From: a virus
IMG/VR virus record: IMGVR_UViG_3300011116_000373
Location: 1-25,845 of that record
Direction: 5' to 3' (one strand)
DNA: 25,845 nucleotides
The position numbers and the translations under genes were made by a program. Below the pieces are notes generated by a model. The model was given only the letters and a program-made list of their open reading frames with translations, was not told the origin of the DNA and made no database searches. Positions 19,461 to 25,845 of the stretch are shown in pieces (the stretch's first letter is position 1; each line of letters opens with the position of its first letter).

Positions 19461-21514
19461 CGGTACTTGTATTCCCTACTCCCCCCTGTGCTGACGCGGT
19501 AACGCTTAAAGCCAAGCCGCTTGAGCACGTCGGCCACCTGCATCTGATCTTGTCGTGTTTGGCGCTCAACAGGCTTTTTAATGGCATCTGTTAGTAACTT
19601 TTCTGTGGTGATGTCATCCATTGGATGTGTTCTTAACCAGGCTTCAATTTCAGCCTGCCAGGGATTATCAACGACATAAGATTCGTTCTCGCTTGCAAGC
19701 ATTGCCTCTAGTGCAGCAGGCAATCGGCTGGTTTCACCTTTACGGTATTCAGCAACAGCAGCGGACCATATTGCATCGCGTTCTAGTAATAGCGAAGCGG
19801 TGTCGATTTGATCTGATTGAGTCTTGGTTGTGGGGATCACCCAAAAGCGGCGGTTACCAGTTTCATCAACCAAAAAGCCGGTGGTGCGGTTAGTGGTACC
19901 GACGATGATTCCACGGCGTGGGAATGCTTCAGTTGATTTGCCATAGGGCACGCGGAACATATCAACCGCCTGCGATAAGAAGGCTTTGACTTGACCGGCG
20001 TGCTTACGATTTGTCACATGGTCCAGTTCTGCCCACTCCATAATCCACGAGCGGTGTAATACCATTAGGTCATCTTTGCTGCTGATATCACCAAGCGCAT
20101 CACTGAAAAAGTCACCAGCGAGGCAGTTCCAGAATGATGATTTGTAAGCGCCTTGGTCGCCCATGATGACGCAAGCGGTGTCGTGTTTGCAGCCAGGGTT
20201 GTAGGCGCGGGCGACTGCGCCAATAAGGGTGCGCTTTAGCATCTCGTCGTAGATGGTGCCGGGCTTGTCACCGACGCGGAGATAAGCCGATGCCAGCGCT
20301 TCGATGTAGGCAGGTTCTACGGTGGCGGCTACCCGGTCGAGGTATTCGACAACGGGGTCATAGGGCGACTCATGGGCTACTTGGACGATGCAATCAAGGG
20401 CGATTTCCTTGGATACCTTGTAGCCCATCTGTGCAAGGGTGAGATAAAAGCGCTCAGCACCTTCGATGGCAGTGCCGTCAACTTCGATGCGTTGGGTGAA
20501 GGTGTTGTAACGGTATGCGCTACCACCATCACGTAGGAATGCCAGCAGTTCTGCAGCATTCATCGGTTGCAGTTGCGCCAATGGAGCGCCGCCAGTAGCA
20601 ACAGGCTCTGGCTTAGGCTTGCCGGCACCACCAGCCCGCCGCGGCTCAATTGCTTCGCGGCTACGCCAACCGTCGCGCTTGGCTAGCTGACCGAGGGTGC
20701 CAAGGGTGATGCCACCATCAGGATTGAAGCCGCGCCACTTGTGTTCGCAGTCTCCGGGCTTGAACTTAGACGACTGGGCTGACCATGAGATCCAGTCTTG
20801 CAGGAGGCTGTCATCTGCAAGGCTGTGTAGGGCCATGCCTACCTCAAGCCATTCGTCGTAGTCATCAGCCCTCGCGGGCGATAGCGCTTCAAGGTATGAC
20901 CGTGCTCTAGCGGCATCGCCACCGCTAACGGCTAACGGCAACAATGGGGCAGGCTGCACTGCCTGCCTGAGCATCCGTGCAATGAGATCTGCTGGCGCTT
21001 CGGCAATGGGCAGGTCTGACGGAGAGCGACCTGGCAGCCATGTGTAACCAGAGGTAAGAGGATGGGCGCCAGCTACGACAGACTGGCAGCCATCCCAGCG
21101 CAGTTCTACTTGCTCGGGTTTGCCTTCAACATCGACGACGCCGGTCTTAAAGCGCCGCGTGCGGATTTCGGACCAGTATTGCTTGGGTACTTGGTAGATG
21201 ACCTGAAACCGCCCGTCGCGGCCTGAGGTGACAGTCCAACTAGGCGGCAGGGAGGACACGGGCATCCCCCAGGACTCCAGCATTTGCGATGCGGACTTGC
21301 CGTCATGGTCAAGAAACAGCAGACCGCCAGACGGTGTGCCGCAGCAGACGCCAATAGCACGGGCGCGGTTGGCTTTGATTTCTTTGCCGAGTTCAGCTCT
21401 GGATATGTGGTTTTTCTGCCAGCCGTCCATGTAGGGACGCTTCTGGCCATCTACGGCGACGTAGGACCAGTGGCGCGGCAGTGCAGCTAGCTGTTGCAGC
21501 AGTTCACTGCTCAT
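19433..21514 (-). CDS. Primase-polymerase / PriCT_2 / VapE-type helicase fusion
   Basis: A 693-residue replication protein. Residues ~10-185 are a bifunctional primase-polymerase domain with the D-x-D pair in LLFLDHDG (D69, D71) and 'SVVAGAHP' (His151). Residues ~205-285 fit PriCT_2 ('YLEALSPARADDYDEWLEVGMALH', 'KFKPGDCEHKWRGF'). Residues ~390-600 form the VapE-type ATPase with Walker A GDQGAYKS (452-459), Walker B IMEWAELD (491-498), and 'GTTNRTTGFLVDETGNRRFW' (539-558). It would start and unwind phage replication. Within Walker A the residue before Lys is Tyr, not the commoner Gly. The start overlaps the RHH gene (ATGA). Confidence 0.92.
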   Translation of the reverse strand: MSSELLQQLAALPRHWSYVAVDGQKRPYMDGWQKNHISRAELGKEIKANRARAIGVCCGTPSGGLLFLDHDGKSASQMLESWGMPVSSLPPSWTVTSGRDGRFQVIYQVPKQYWSEIRTRRFKTGVVDVEGKPEQVELRWDGCQSVVAGAHPLTSGYTWLPGRSPSDLPIAEAPADLIARMLRQAVQPAPLLPLAVSGGDAARARSYLEALSPARADDYDEWLEVGMALHSLADDSLLQDWISWSAQSSKFKPGDCEHKWRGFNPDGGITLGTLGQLAKRDGWRSREAIEPRRAGGAGKPKPEPVATGGAPLAQLQPMNAAELLAFLRDGGSAYRYNTFTQRIEVDGTAIEGAERFYLTLAQMGYKVSKEIALDCIVQVAHESPYDPVVEYLDRVAATVEPAYIEALASAYLRVGDKPGTIYDEMLKRTLIGAVARAYNPGCKHDTACVIMGDQGAYKSSFWNCLAGDFFSDALGDISSKDDLMVLHRSWIMEWAELDHVTNRKHAGQVKAFLSQAVDMFRVPYGKSTEAFPRRGIIVGTTNRTTGFLVDETGNRRFWVIPTTKTQSDQIDTASLLLERDAIWSAAVAEYRKGETSRLPAALEAMLASENESYVVDNPWQAEIEAWLRTHPMDDITTEKLLTDAIKKPVERQTRQDQMQVADVLKRLGFKRYRVSTGGSREYKYRKTCPTWVG

Positions 21515-21672
21515 CGGTTGGCCGGCAACACGTTATCAAGATGCAACCGCAGTGCCTGCTCAAGTAACAGCCTGATGGCAGTTGCGCGGTTCATGCGGTC
21601 ACCACGCCAAGAATCGAGTCGTTGCAGCAGGTCTGGGCTAAGGCGTATATGAGTGGGGTGGCTAAGACGCAC
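21511..21672 (-). CDS. Short ribbon-helix-helix regulator
   Basis: A 53-residue protein found by hand, GTG 21672 to TGA 21513-21511, overlapping the primase ATG by 4 bp. Sequence begins (as Met) MRLSHPTHIRLSPDLLQRLD and goes on with 'GDRMNRATAIRLLLEQALRL'. The 'P-x-x-IRLSPxLLxxLDxW...N-R-A-T-A-I-R-LLLEQAL' pattern is a classic RHH domain. It is the first gene of the minus block and starts about 26 bp from a perfect 9+9 palindrome, which makes it the best candidate for the factor that binds there and controls both arms. Confidence 0.8.
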   Translation of the reverse strand: MRLSHPTHIRLSPDLLQRLDSWRGDRMNRATAIRLLLEQALRLHLDNVLPANR

Positions 21673-21748: not shown

Positions 21749-21919
21749 ATGAATCCGATTTATCGCATCACATACCAACGCCCTTGGGGCGAATGTGTGG
21801 TCAACACCACTCAATTTGCTGACGAGGCAGAGTTGCATATTGGTTTTGCAAGGTCATACAAAGGATGCGAGCTTCTCAAAATTGAAGATGTAACCAAAGA
21901 GTATTTACCGGAATCATGA
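21749..21919 (+). CDS. Small unknown protein, first gene of the plus operon
   Basis: A 56-residue protein found by hand: MNPIYRITYQRPWGECVVNT, then 'TQFADEAELHIGFARSYKGCELLKIEDVTKEYLPES'. It reads as a small alpha/beta protein, probably one strand pair, a helix and a strand. Its stop overlaps the IbrA-like start (ATGA), so it could serve as a coupled leader gene. The family is not recognised. It is 31 bp downstream of the promoter-like element. Confidence 0.75.
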   Translation: MNPIYRITYQRPWGECVVNTTQFADEAELHIGFARSYKGCELLKIEDVTKEYLPES

Positions 21920-23235
21920 GCAGAACCTATCTAAAACAGAATGTGTATGACGCTTCTATGGAGCGCCTTGATTTTATCTTTGAGCATTTCACGCGGGTTT
22001 ACGTTTCGTTTTCTGGCGGCAAAGACAGCGGCGTTCTTCTGAATCTTGTCTGCGATTACATAAGAGATCGCAAGCTGTCAGTCAAGGTCGGCGTCCAAAT
22101 CATGGACAATGAAGCCAACTACAACCACAGCAAGGAGTTCATGCATCGCATCCTCGAAGCCAACCACGACATCCTGGACATCTATTGGTGCTGCCTCCCC
22201 ATCACACTGCCTTGCACTGTCAGCTCTTATGAAATCGACTGGCAATGTTGGGGCGAAGCTGATCGTCATCGTTGGATTCAACCTATGCCGCAGCAAGATT
22301 ACATTGTGAACCTGGAAAACCACCCTTTTGGCGATTTGTTTATTGAAAACATGGACTACGCCACTTTCTGGGACATGTTCGCTGAGTGGTATAGCCAGGG
22401 TGAGCCGTGCGCCAACCTAATCGGTATCCGCACTGTTGAGTCGCTAAACCGATTCCGGGCAATTCTGAACCAAGACAAGGAAACCATGCTCGGACGCATG
22501 TGGACTAAGAAAAACACGGCGCATACCTACAACTGCTATCCAATCTATGATTGGCGCACGGAAGACATTTGGACCGCTAACGCCAAGTTTGGGTGGGATT
22601 ACAACAAGCTCTATGACGTGTTTTACATGGCTGGCATCCCGATCAAAAAAATGCGAGTTGCCTCGCCGTTTATGTCAGAGTCCAAATCCAGCCTCGCCAT
22701 GTATCGGGTAATCGATCCGCAAATCTGGGCAAGACTTTGCGCCAGGGTTGGCGGTGCCAACTTTATGGCTACCTATGGCAAACAACTTGATTACAAATCC
22801 TTCAGGTTGCCGCCAGGCCATACTTGGAAATCTTTTGTTAAGTTTCTGTTGGCTACATTGCCGGACCAGTCAAACGCAAATTTTAAGCAGCGCTTCATCC
22901 AGTCAATCCGTTACTGGGGCAGGGTGGGGCGCGGTCTTCCTGAGACCATTATTGAAGCTCTTGATCGTATCGGCATTCGCTTCTACATTAATGGCATTAC
23001 GCTTCATGGTGGCAACAACCTGCGCCGTGTTGTGATCAAGGTGCCACCTGATCACCTTGATGATTTGCCATGCCACAACAGCATGGTTACATCGTGGAAG
23101 CGGTTTGCAATCACCGTGCTCAAGAACGACCACACTTGCAAATACCTTGGTTTAGCTCCAACACAAGAGCAACAGCGCCGCCAAAAATCAATCCAACGCA
23201 AGTACAGCCAAGTCCTTAACCGTTCTGCCAAATGA
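21916..23235 (+). CDS. IbrA-like PP-loop protein (PAPS reductase family with DUF3440-like region)
   Basis: A 439-residue protein. The PP-loop SGGKDS at 33-38 binds ATP/phosphate in the PAPS reductase/ATP-pyrophosphatase family. Then follow 'GIRTVESLNRFRAIL' and 'NCYPIYDWRTEDIWTANAKFGWDYNKLYDVFYMAGIPIKKMRVASPF', 'WARLCARVGGANFMATYG' and 'LPPGHTWKSFVKFLL', which I recognise from the DUF3440/IbrA group. The last 50 residues contain 'TSWKRFAITVLKNDH' and an Arg/Lys/Gln-rich end. IbrA and IbrB were described as regulators of immunoglobulin-binding proteins in E. coli, and pairs like this occur in phages and mobile elements. The reaction is unknown; true sulphate reduction is unlikely since no other assimilation genes are present. 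Confidence 0.88.
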   Translation: MSRTYLKQNVYDASMERLDFIFEHFTRVYVSFSGGKDSGVLLNLVCDYIRDRKLSVKVGVQIMDNEANYNHSKEFMHRILEANHDILDIYWCCLPITLPCTVSSYEIDWQCWGEADRHRWIQPMPQQDYIVNLENHPFGDLFIENMDYATFWDMFAEWYSQGEPCANLIGIRTVESLNRFRAILNQDKETMLGRMWTKKNTAHTYNCYPIYDWRTEDIWTANAKFGWDYNKLYDVFYMAGIPIKKMRVASPFMSESKSSLAMYRVIDPQIWARLCARVGGANFMATYGKQLDYKSFRLPPGHTWKSFVKFLLATLPDQSNANFKQRFIQSIRYWGRVGRGLPETIIEALDRIGIRFYINGITLHGGNNLRRVVIKVPPDHLDDLPCHNSMVTSWKRFAITVLKNDHTCKYLGLAPTQEQQRRQKSIQRKYSQVLNRSAK

Positions 23236-24173
23236 AAATCTTTAACGCCGCCCAGCTTTCCAGTGACCGCTTTGTTCAATGTCCTCGCGGTGGCTTTACC
23301 AGTCATCGCCTTGTCATAGAAACTGATGGCATGGGCTACAGCATGACCAAAACCGTCATTCACCCTGGCAAGCCGCATCGTTGGCATTATCAACACCACC
23401 TTGAAACCTGCTATTGCGTCAGCGGAAAAGGTTTGTTAATCAATGAAGCAACACAAGAAATCGTCGCGGTAGGCCCTGACGTGACCTACGTACTCGACAA
23501 GCACGATGCTCACACATTTGAAGCATTGGAGCCCACTACGTTGATCTGTGTTTTTAATCCACCTCTTAAGGGAGACGAGTTGCACGATGCAAACGATTCT
23601 TATCCTTGGCGATCCCCGGTCTACTCTGTACGCAGCATTCCTATCGAGAAAGTTACCGCCAACGATTACAACCCCAATTCTGTGGCGCCGCCTGAAATGG
23701 CACTACTCGAAACATCGATTTGGGAAGACGGCTACACACAACCTGTCGTTGTCGTGCATGATATCGAACGCGACCTTTATGTGGTCGTTGACGGTTTTCA
23801 CCGATACTTGACCCTTAAGAACAGCCAACGCATTCGTGAGCGCGAAGGTGGTCGATTGCCAGTTGTTGTGCTTCGCAAGGAATTGCACGACCGTATGGCG
23901 TCAACCATCCGCCACAATCGTGCTCGCGGCTCGCACAACATCGAGCTGATGAGTGTGATCGTTGCTGAGCTGATTGAGATGGGCAAGGGCGACGCATGGA
24001 TCTGTAAGCACATCGGCATGAGCCCTGATGAGCTGTTGCGCCTTAAACAAGTGACTGGCCTTGCATCCCTGTTCCTTGGCAAAGATTTCAGCAAAGCATG
24101 GGACGTAGAGCAAATTAACAACGTGACGGAGGATCTTGAGCGTGAAGCTGAAGAGGATCTGGTTGCCCATTGA
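23232..24173 (+). CDS. Fusion of ectoine-synthase-like cupin and IbrB-like ParB/sulfiredoxin-fold protein
   Basis: A 313-residue protein overlapping the IbrA-like stop (ATGA). Residues 1-~126 match ectoine synthase (EctC): DGMGYS (32-37), WHYQHHLETCYCVSGKG (51-67), LDKHDAHTF (88-96), CVFNPPLKGDELH (106-118) and SYP. Residues equivalent to the EctC metal ligands as I recall them (Glu57, Tyr85, His93) are kept as Glu58, Tyr86 and His94, as are Cys106 and Phe108. Residues ~131-313 form an IbrB-like ParB domain with DYNPN (145-149), DGFHRY (187-192), RHNRARGSH (227-235), and a C-terminal HTH-like region 'DAWICKHIGMSPDELLRLKQVTGLASLF'. No ectA or ectB is present, so the cupin probably acts on something else or as a sensor. 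Confidence 0.88.
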   Translation: MKIFNAAQLSSDRFVQCPRGGFTSHRLVIETDGMGYSMTKTVIHPGKPHRWHYQHHLETCYCVSGKGLLINEATQEIVAVGPDVTYVLDKHDAHTFEALEPTTLICVFNPPLKGDELHDANDSYPWRSPVYSVRSIPIEKVTANDYNPNSVAPPEMALLETSIWEDGYTQPVVVVHDIERDLYVVVDGFHRYLTLKNSQRIREREGGRLPVVVLRKELHDRMASTIRHNRARGSHNIELMSVIVAELIEMGKGDAWICKHIGMSPDELLRLKQVTGLASLFLGKDFSKAWDVEQINNVTEDLEREAEEDLVAH

Positions 24174-24567
24174 TACCTGGGAAGAGATCGGTTTCAACAT
24201 GTGGGGCGACGTGGCCAATCGTCGCCTCTACTTACAAAGGGCTGAGATCTTCACCGGTAATCATCGCCTTTACGGGCGTTATATGCAGCGGGTCACATTT
24301 AAGTGGCCCAACAGTTGCATCAATGCACTAACTGACTACAACCTAAACCGCAAGGCATGGATCGGGCACGCAGCTTGCGCGCTGGCCCTTCGGTGCCCTG
24401 AAGACATTACACGACAAGCCTGGGGGCTATTAACCGATGAGCAACGGATTCTGGCGAACCGCCAAGCAGAGAGAGCCATTCAGTCCTGGGAGGTGCGCTA
24501 CAGACAGAGTCTCGGAATACGTGCGGACGTGGCAAGCCCGTTGTTATTTGCACGAGATTCCCGATGA
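24142..24567 (+). CDS. Unknown protein of the IbrA/EctC-ParB operon
   Basis: A 141-residue protein. GTG 24142 is chosen because GGAGG (24128-24132) is 9 bases upstream; the TTG at 24136 is too close to it. It overlaps the previous gene by 32 bp. The sequence starts MKLKRIWLPIDTWEEIGFNM and includes 'WPNSCINALTDYNLNRKAWIGHAACALALRCPEDITRQAWGLLTDEQRILANRQAERAI'. The many Trp, Cys and His residues and the even composition indicate a folded helical protein. I do not recognise a named family, but the gene sits in the Ibr-like locus and likely works with it. Confidence 0.8.
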   Translation: MKLKRIWLPIDTWEEIGFNMWGDVANRRLYLQRAEIFTGNHRLYGRYMQRVTFKWPNSCINALTDYNLNRKAWIGHAACALALRCPEDITRQAWGLLTDEQRILANRQAERAIQSWEVRYRQSLGIRADVASPLLFARDSR

Positions 24568-24769
24568 GATACCCCCAAAAGTGGCAACGTCCGGCCGCGC
24601 ACCATCGTGGCGTGCAGTTGCCATTGCGTTGCTGCAGAACGATTTACACCTTTATCAGTTGGGCTATGCAAGACCTGCATACGACCAGCAACGCCGTGCT
24701 GTAAGCCTGGCGCAGATCGCCGTGCATGGCGCCCCGGCTGATGGCACACAATTGGAGCTACCGCTATGA
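24437..24769 (+). CDS. Small protein sharing the C-terminal motif of the IbrA-like protein
   Basis: A 110-residue protein if the ATG at 24437 is used, which overlaps the previous gene by 131 bp; a GTG at 24521 (82 residues) is a plausible alternative since recognisable sequence starts around 'YVRTWQARCYLHEIPDEIPP'. Residues 56-87, 'PSWRAVAIALLQNDL...LG...QQRR', parallel the 'TSWKRFAITVLKNDH...LG...QQRR' end of the IbrA-like protein. The C-terminus ends in TQLELPL. Its stop overlaps the helicase ATG. It may compete or cooperate with the IbrA-like tail; function unknown. Confidence 0.75.
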   Translation: MSNGFWRTAKQREPFSPGRCATDRVSEYVRTWQARCYLHEIPDEIPPKVATSGRAPSWRAVAIALLQNDLHLYQLGYARPAYDQQRRAVSLAQIAVHGAPADGTQLELPL

Positions 24770-25845
24770 ACCTCCGCCCCTACCAGCAGCAACTGATTAC
24801 CGACATCCGTTTGCAATACCAGCTAGGTCATAAGCGTGTCCTGGCGGTTCTGCCAACTGGTGGCGGCAAGACCGTATGCTTCACCCACATTGCACAGCAA
24901 GCCGCCAAGAAGGGCAACCGCGTCTGCATGCTGGTGCATCGGCAGGAGTTACTGGATCAAGCCAGTAGAGCAATGCCAATGCCCCATGGGTGCATCCGTG
25001 CTGGCAAGGCTATGGACTTAAGCCATGGCGTGCAGGTTGCCAGTGTGCAGACCTTGGCCCGAAGGCTCCATTTGATCCCAGCTGACTTCTTCCAGTTACT
25101 GATCGTGGACGAGGCGCACCACACCAACGCCGGCACTTGGCGCAAGGTGATTGAGCATTGCGCATCTGCCCACCTACTAGGCGTTACGGCGACGCCATGC
25201 CGGACTGATGGCCGCGGCCTTGGCGAGTGGTATCAGGCCATGGTGCAGGGACCAACAGCGCAGTGGCTGACCGATAACGGCTATCTAGCCAATGCCCGTG
25301 TGCTGGCACCACCTGGATTTGACGCCAAGGGACTGCGTAAGCAGATGGGTGATTACGCGCCAAAGGAGGCAGAGCAGCGGGTTGGCACAATCATGGGTGA
25401 CATCGTTGGGCATTACCGCAAGCATCTGTCAGGCCAGACGGCTATTGCGTTCTGCTGCAGCGTTGCCCATGCGGAGGCCGTGGCTGCGCTATTTACTAGC
25501 CATGGCATTGCAGCAGCCAGCATTGACGGCACCATGAGCAGTGACTGCAGGCGAGATCGGTTGCAGGCGCTTGAATCTGGCAGGCTTAAGGTGCTGACCA
25601 GTTGCGCATTGATTGGGGAAGGCGTGGACGTACCCAGCGTCGGGGGTTGCATCCTGCTAAGGCCAACGCAGTCCGAGGCGCTGCATCTGCAGATGATCGG
25701 CAGGTGCCTCAGGCCATCAGGCGCCAAGGTGGCTGTGGTGCTGGATCATGTCGGCAATACGCTCCGGCTTGGCCATCACCTAGAGCAACGCGACTGGAGT
25801 TTGGACGGTCTTAAAAAGCGTGACAGCGACCAAGCACCAAGCGTC
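24766..25845 (+). CDS. SF2 DEAD/DEAH-box helicase, 3' end cut by the window
   Basis: An open frame of 360 codons with no stop before the window edge. Motif I is PTGGGKT (30-36), motif II DEAH (115-118), motif III TATP (141-144), and motif VI QMIGRCLRP (309-317) with 'GEGVDVPSV' (motif V) at ~284-292. It begins MNLRPYQQQLITDIR, the usual start of RecG/UvsW/RadD-like SF2 helicases. Such phage helicases act in replication, recombination or branch migration. Its start overlaps the previous stop (ATGA), so it is part of the plus operon. Confidence 0.93.
   Translation, partial: MNLRPYQQQLITDIRLQYQLGHKRVLAVLPTGGGKTVCFTHIAQQAAKKGNRVCMLVHRQELLDQASRAMPMPHGCIRAGKAMDLSHGVQVASVQTLARRLHLIPADFFQLLIVDEAHHTNAGTWRKVIEHCASAHLLGVTATPCRTDGRGLGEWYQAMVQGPTAQWLTDNGYLANARVLAPPGFDAKGLRKQMGDYAPKEAEQRVGTIMGDIVGHYRKHLSGQTAIAFCCSVAHAEAVAALFTSHGIAAASIDGTMSSDCRRDRLQALESGRLKVLTSCALIGEGVDVPSVGGCILLRPTQSEALHLQMIGRCLRPSGAKVAVVLDHVGNTLRLGHHLEQRDWSLDGLKKRDSDQAPSV

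Follow-up and report, generated by a model that had tools for sequence, protein, structure and literature searches.

A four-gene phage cassette that joins an IbrA-type PP-loop protein to an ectoine synthase–IbrB fusion, and its possible functions

Introduction

What might a phage gain from encoding a PP-loop protein, an ectoine synthase-like cupin and a ParB-like domain in one chain of overlapping genes? The question is raised by IMG/VR virus record IMGVR_UViG_3300011116_000373, a linear viral record of which the whole stretch analysed here, 25,845 bases, is called the window. Its minus strand carries head, tail, terminase, primase and sliding-clamp genes, and its plus strand, from position 21749, carries p56, IbrA, EctC-ParB (an EctC::IbrB fusion), p141, p110 and a superfamily 2 (SF2) helicase, each overlapping the next (Table 1). 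An initial annotation had proposed the first five of these as a translationally coupled operon that leads into the helicase and might form a new phage system. The five open reading frames (ORFs) and their end-to-start overlaps are as it described, and so is the run into the helicase: in window order the overlaps are ATGA, ATGA, 32 nucleotides (nt), 131 nt and, between p110 and the helicase, ATGA. The domain calls were likewise correct, with DUF3440 (1.8e-53) and PAPS_reduct (9e-9) on IbrA and, on the fusion, Ectoine_synth and a ParB_N match (1e-4) that lies below the cut-off. Here we ask which of these genes belong together, what their products resemble, and what they might do.

A conserved four-gene core

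Loci were fetched with three baits: the fusion protein for the arrangement seen in the window (class C), p141 for class B and IbrB for class A, the three layouts being described below. Each search yielded the best 80 of a larger number of matches, and as the bait is present by construction only the counts of the other genes are informative. The fusion bait brought in 80 viral loci: 79 have IbrA, all 80 have p141 and 79 have p110, and both misses (L057 and L077) are cuts at contig ends. Near-copies are many among the class C loci, which fall by IbrA identity into 34 clusters at 95%, 23 at 90% and 15 at 80%.

The junctions between the genes are kept as well. Across the 74 class C viral loci in which all four genes are complete, IbrA overlaps EctC-ParB by exactly 4 nt in 67, EctC-ParB overlaps p141 by 32 nt in 59, and p141 overlaps p110 by 128 or 131 nt in 65. 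Many viruses that are not related to one another keep the cassette; it occurs in Mycobacterium and Pseudoalteromonas phages and in Planctomycetota and Saprospiraceae contigs, and the same four-gene order recurs in the cultured phages Gaia and XCL1123 as well as in one Planctomycetota and one Saprospiraceae contig. A chance neighbourhood is ruled out by the conserved overlaps and gene order. The conserved core is IbrA, EctC::IbrB, p141 and p110, and to judge by this distribution it is inherited as a unit. Of the five-gene system first proposed, these four genes therefore stand, co-inherited and with their overlaps kept, and p56 drops out; comparison of the partners across related loci likewise upheld the four and went against both p56 and the helicase.

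p141, p110 and a probable dual-coding overlap

p141, found in every class C locus and throughout the class B cassettes, is by its distribution an obligate partner in both. Its structural model is all-helical with a predicted local distance difference test score (pLDDT) of 92.7. Foldseek returned no PDB match at E<=0.001, the best VIA-align Z being 3.3, and the single strong BFVD match is a 116-residue viral protein of 58% identity, apparently the XCL1123 homologue; a missing structural match does not prove a new fold. Its Pfam scores do not rise above noise, and PHROGs, NCBIfam and PADLOC have no family that matches it. That p141 might be a piece of IbrA was considered and rejected, as no match was found.

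The 110-residue protein, called an unknown in the initial annotation, does have a recognizable relative. Aligned by hhalign (A4) to the end of the IbrA profile, p110 gave a probability of 97.4 and an E-value of 1.1e-11, and it carries the PSW/YK...ND motif of the DUF3440 C-terminal tail. In a separate scan PF11922, the Pfam model of DUF3440, matches the p110 places of XCL1123 (1.9e-4) and of the L170 genome (2.7e-4), both below cut-off. On these alignments p110 is a free-standing copy of the DUF3440 tail of IbrA. In median bits, the p110 profile scores 43.7 on the IbrA tails of class B, 29.6 on those of class A and 23.0 on those of class C, and p110 occupies the place held by IbrA in class B. 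In a tree of 41 tail columns (64 rows, hand-picked out of 249 loci), p110 forms a clade of its own on long branches. The tree sets p110 apart, so its descent from a class B IbrA is not accepted as proven and is kept here as a hypothesis.

The long overlap between p141 and p110 was examined in 64 class C sequences (53 distinct; L010-L075 and the window) that are complete and stop-free in both frames. Across the 53 distinct loci, p141 shows synonymous differences of 0.588 outside the overlap and of 0.298 in that part of it which precedes codon 24521. In the same part of the overlap, the ratio of nonsynonymous to synonymous differences is 0.35 for p141 and 0.48 for p110, each read in its own frame; the third frame gives 1.31 there, and a non-coding frame elsewhere gives 1.37. 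Because the p141 and p110 frames are both constrained, both are very probably real proteins and the overlap very probably codes twice. A later p110 start, at GTG 24521, was rejected: GTG stands there in only 30 of the 53 distinct loci, the ATG at 24437 is kept in 53 of 53, and both frames are constrained.

IbrA, a PP-loop protein mislabelled as a reductase

IbrA scores 181.5 bits on DUF3440, for which the Pfam cut-off is 25, and matches PHROG_2302 at 2e-107. A search of 50,697 phage records found IbrA-like genes in 215, and many of those among the matches listed are labelled phosphoadenosine phosphosulfate (PAPS) reductase. Two short motifs bear on that label: SGGKDS is the ATP-pyrophosphatase motif, and ECG[LI]H is the catalytic cysteine motif of the CysH PAPS reductase. 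Among 248 IbrA ORFs over 300 residues, the complete SGGKDS PP-loop is present in 245 (and invariant in 9 aligned sequences), and ECG[LIV]H is present in none. The reading as PAPS reductase is rejected because this motif is absent. The structural model (pLDDT 84.4) has as its nearest solved folds the PAPS domain of FAD synthase (Z 15.6) and the ATP sulfurylase CysD (Z 14.8); its fold neighbours also include PAPS/APS reductases, with Z down to about 13, and Z does not separate them.

DndC and BrxP are weakly related to IbrA: the DndC model scores 19.6 bits on IbrA against a cut-off of 290, and the PADLOC models of both likewise match weakly. The cysteines for the [4Fe-4S] cluster of DndC have no counterpart in IbrA: not one cysteine is invariant in 9 aligned IbrA sequences, and in 30 aligned only C93 is. 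DndC requires C280, according to passages of PMC11662687.

The EctC::IbrB fusion

The cupin part of the fusion scores 130.8 bits on the NCBIfam ectoine synthase model, above its 128-bit cut-off. EctC and IbrB are fused in 81 of 84 class C loci and encoded by neighbouring separate ORFs in the other 3; the occurrence of both split and fused forms is domain-fusion evidence for joint action. Cupin residues were scored against EctC of P. lautus, with roles taken from sections of PMC6344544. Every one of the 84 class C loci retains the iron ligands E57, Y84 and H92, as does the window; S23, R25, T40 and Y52 are likewise retained in all 84, and F106 in 83. Two positions described in those sections as substrate contacts differ: Phe replaces W21 in 82 of 84 loci (the other 2 have a gap), and Thr replaces N38 in 80 of 84. 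As the other solved EctC, 5bxx, has His at the aligned N38 position, only the change at W21 is a firm departure. We read the domain, from this residue pattern, as an active cyclase whose substrate has changed.

The remainder of the fusion is ParB-like, matching a ParB-like family (phrog_2159) at 2.9e-77 and ParB_N at 22.8 bits, short of the cut-off of 26.3. Within IbrB, DG.HR and RHNRARG.H are invariant, and D61, G62, H64 and R65 (A1 numbering) are invariant in 9 sequences. The nucleotide motif of ParB goes by the name G-E-R-R; a motif of this type was not found in IbrB, which has DGFHR in its place. The best natural solved matches are Noc and ParB, over the N-terminal domain, followed by SbnI, with which IbrB shares a DGxHRY motif (DGVHRY in SbnI); SerK is matched weakly.

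Three gene layouts

IbrA and IbrB occur in three layouts: IbrA-IbrB (class A), IbrB-p141-IbrA (class B), and IbrA, EctC::IbrB, p141, p110 (class C, as in the window). The 80 viral class B loci, obtained with a p141 profile whose lead sequence is the Microcystis phage copy, all have IbrA, and 78 have IbrB, the two misses (L093, L133) starting just upstream of p141. EctC was found in 0 of these 80 loci, and no free p110 was found among them, the p110 profile matching the IbrA tail only. An IbrB profile fetched 80 bacterial-genome loci, 78 of them plain IbrA-IbrB pairs and 2 of class C; class A is common across bacterial genomes and plasmids as well. IbrA and IbrB are both present in 79 of the 80 class C loci and in all 80 bacterial-genome loci.

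In the IbrB tree (54 rows, hand-picked from the same 249 loci), class C is one clade (100/99) nested on the class A side, with class B far off and separate (100/100). By appearance, class C arose from a class A pair through a single gain of EctC, p141 and p110, a direction that we infer.

In the bacterial loci (L170-L249), the gene directly 5' of IbrA is GNAT-like in 42 of 80 or an SNF2-type helicase in 31 of 80, never both, which accounts for 73 of the loci. The GNAT-like gene encodes a 130-residue protein, and we claim no acetylation because its resemblance is weak (best Pfam value 0.0084, in 1 of 18 members; best PDB value 0.13). The SNF2 protein of L171 seemingly has no normal Walker A motif. 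One record labelled 'Bacteriophage sp.' (MT835983.1, L008) has the GNAT-like gene, the IbrA-IbrB pair and neighbours as in Bacteroides chromosomes, and may be bacterial DNA.

Accessory and neighbouring genes

The remaining genes of the chain are less constant. p56 matches nothing in Pfam, PHROG, NCBIfam or PADLOC; a homologue is found in 26 of 88 loci examined, mostly close relatives, and overlaps IbrA by 4 nt in 22 of 25 measured loci. Its distribution marks it as a lineage-specific accessory outside the core. The helicase, which matches phrog_16 at 1.4e-94, is present in 54 of the 88 loci, again mostly close relatives, and overlaps p110 by 4 nt in 41 of 43 measured loci. It adjoins the cassette in 50 of 80 class C loci but in only 6 of the 23 class C clusters at 90% IbrA identity, and is rejected as a core gene on the latter count.

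Genes for phage replication or recombination lie near the cassettes. In the window, the operon is directly preceded by a divergent gene for a 53-residue protein which we take to be a small regulator of the Arc/ribbon-helix-helix type, and which is a possible local repressor. A promoter scan found no promoter. In Gaia (L002, 8200-8574), an extra gene, gp105, whose counterpart is named a GIY-YIG-like endonuclease in the Nebkiss record, lies between the EctC-ParB gene and p141, and the rest of the cassette is kept.

Table 1. Positions of the cassette genes, their parts and flanking genes in the window (aa, amino acids).
Feature	Position	Strand	Remarks
Divergent 53-aa repressor-like gene	21511-21672	-	phrog_4738 transcriptional repressor, 1.2e-6
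p56	21749-21919	+	small ORF
IbrA	21916-23235	+	439 aa; PP-loop ATP-pyrophosphatase domain (SGGKDS) and DUF3440
EctC-ParB (EctC::IbrB fusion)	23232-24173	+	313 aa
EctC cupin	~aa 11-126, nt 23262-23609	+	Ectoine_synth 8.9e-36
ParB/Srx-like IbrB part	~aa 127-293	+	carries DGFHR, RHNRARGSH
p141	24142-24567	+	GTG start; in-frame TTG at 24136
p110	24437-24769	+	ATG at 24437
p141/p110 dual-coding overlap (very probable)	24437-24567	+	131 nt
SF2 helicase (ResIII/RadD-like)	24766-25845	+	open at window end

Possible functions of the cassette

We tentatively favour, at somewhat short of an even chance, the view that the class C products form an ATP-dependent modification complex that is directed to DNA and to which a cyclase has been added. 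The four products would work together as a single enzyme complex whose target is DNA or nucleotides lying next to it. IbrA would use ATP to adenylate a substrate group, with the PP-loop chemistry of CysD, FAD synthase and DndC, and IbrB would bind a nucleoside triphosphate (NTP) and, through a predicted helix-turn-helix, DNA, and direct IbrA there. As a tailoring step, the EctC domain would carry out ring closure on a complex-bound substrate that is altered and not that of ectoine synthesis, with p141 and p110 as putative docking subunits tying the DUF3440 module to IbrB. The product might be a base or nucleotide whose modification helps the phage in replication, host-gene control or evasion of host defence. 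This view draws on the co-inheritance of the four genes, the single class C clade of IbrB, the split and fused forms of EctC and IbrB, the intact PP-loop and cupin iron ligands, the fold neighbours of IbrA, the likeness of IbrB to SbnI and Noc/ParB, the replication or recombination genes nearby and the Dnd and Dpd parallels described below.

Several points weigh against this proposal. The only IbrAB phenotype known to us is the activation of prophage genes, which needs no chemistry on DNA and which a regulator also explains; for this reason we go no further than a tentative preference. No modified nucleoside, activity or phenotype of the cassette was found in the literature searched. Classes A and B are without EctC, so cyclisation is not the core reaction, and as IbrA is without the DndC cysteine set a Dnd-like insertion of sulfur is unlikely. 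The helix-turn-helix in IbrB is predicted from weak ParB-family matches.

That regulator is itself quite possible, if doubtful: IbrA, IbrB and their partners would attach to DNA or RNA polymerase and so switch on late genes of the phage or a prophage, while the cupin and the binding of ATP or NTP serve in sensing and not in catalysis. The family name fits, as does the ParB-like part of IbrB with its likely helix-turn-helix, and IbrAB reportedly activate prophage (eib) genes. In E. coli, YbdNM adjoins a LysR regulator, according to parts of PMC9068703. However, a complete PP-loop and strictly kept cupin iron ligands point to catalysis, and a regulator has no need of a conserved cyclase.

It is rather unlikely that the cassette, by altering nucleotides or DNA, serves to shield the phage from host restriction and other systems or to block rival phages. 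Phage early genes close by, the spread of class A through bacterial genomes and plasmids and the weak matches of IbrA to DndC and BrxP models would suit counter-defence or phage–phage exclusion, yet EctC-ParB, p141, p110 and p56 match no PADLOC family, the helicase matches generic SF2 models, and scans with Pfam, PHROG, NCBIfam and PADLOC gave neither a toxin nor a nuclease domain for any of the four core proteins.

A bolder form of the modification complex is also conceivable, though we hold it improbable: the cassette might install a ring-closed modification, an ectoine-like cyclic amidine, on phage DNA or nucleotides, with IbrA adenylating, IbrB targeting, EctC cyclising and p141 and p110 providing a new docking platform. 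If so, an ectoine-synthase fold would here be put to DNA-directed use for the first time, to our knowledge. Slightly more improbable still is a role in small-molecule metabolism, in which the cassette, independently of DNA, would make a cyclic metabolite, ectoine-like or otherwise, that serves as osmolyte or signal. The EctC active site is mostly kept, and the motif shared with SbnI, a serine kinase, and the weak SerK match might be read in the same way, but the ligand-stacking Trp21 is changed in nearly all loci, EctC is always tied to IbrB in them, and no ectA- or ectB-like neighbour was noticed, although no directed search for them was made. Finally, that IbrA is a PAPS reductase boosting host sulfate assimilation among unrelated neighbours, as database labels and the treatment of XCL1123 in passages of PMC10232697 would have it, is scarcely credible in view of the motif counts above and of neighbours strictly co-inherited with IbrA.

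Implications

IbrA is routinely mislabelled as a sulfate-reducing enzyme, and as its sequence evidence contradicts the PAPS reductase label, claims that count it as a sulfur-cycle auxiliary gene need rechecking. At least one published survey counted an IbrA in a phage with this cassette in this way: in parts of PMC10232697, that of XCL1123 (MN313256.1) appears as a PAPS reductase of the inorganic sulfur cycle. The function of EctC-type proteins outside ectoine operons is called unclear in sections of PMC6344544, and the cassette offers a phage-encoded setting for such a protein. It also names two partner families, p141 and p110, and makes the problem testable in the cultured phages Gaia and XCL1123.

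Comparison with known systems

In searches of Creative Commons-licensed full texts, we found no paper on the cassette, the fusion or p141/p110. What is already known is the IbrA/IbrB pair, together with the name of the fusion, 'ectoine synthase/ParB multidomain protein' in the GenBank record of Gaia; the word 'new' in the initial annotation thus has to be qualified. Nor were the three-layout scheme, the p141/p110 partnership, the dual-coding overlap or the altered cupin site found in the literature searched.

In the Dnd and Dpd systems, which modify DNA, a ParB-like protein accompanies a PP-loop or tRNA-guanine transglycosylase (TGT) enzyme, as described in parts of PMC12839542 and PMC11662687. 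The cassette resembles DndC/DndB in pairing a PP-loop protein with a member of the ParB superfamily and in its weak DndC profile matches, and differs in that the DndC-type cysteine set is not in IbrA; no DndD or DndE was noticed among the cassette neighbours, which were not searched by name. Ectoine synthase EctC shares the iron ligands and most substrate contacts with the cupin, which differs in having Phe for Trp21 and Thr for Asn38 and in being fused to IbrB.

The IbrA/IbrB pair of E. coli ECOR-9, named 'co-activators of prophage gene expression' (YbdN/YbdM in E. coli K-12), likewise sets a PP-loop/DUF3440 IbrA beside a ParB-like IbrB, and the window IbrA is 36-42% identical to class A IbrA proteins; unlike this pair, class C has an IbrB that bears the EctC cupin, with p141 and p110 added. 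Class B, as in Microcystis phage Mwe-JY13, in Pseudomonas phage Amjad_SA (where the order is deduced from coordinates) and in numerous viral contigs, has p141 and a DUF3440 tail that resembles p110 in common with class C, but is without EctC and a free p110, runs in the opposite gene order and has its IbrB in a separate clade. Closest are the phages of class C itself: Nebkiss has matches for IbrA, the fusion and p141, and Gaia and XCL1123 carry the same genes in the same order as the window, Gaia with its extra gene between fusion and p141 and XCL1123 with EctC and IbrB as two ORFs.

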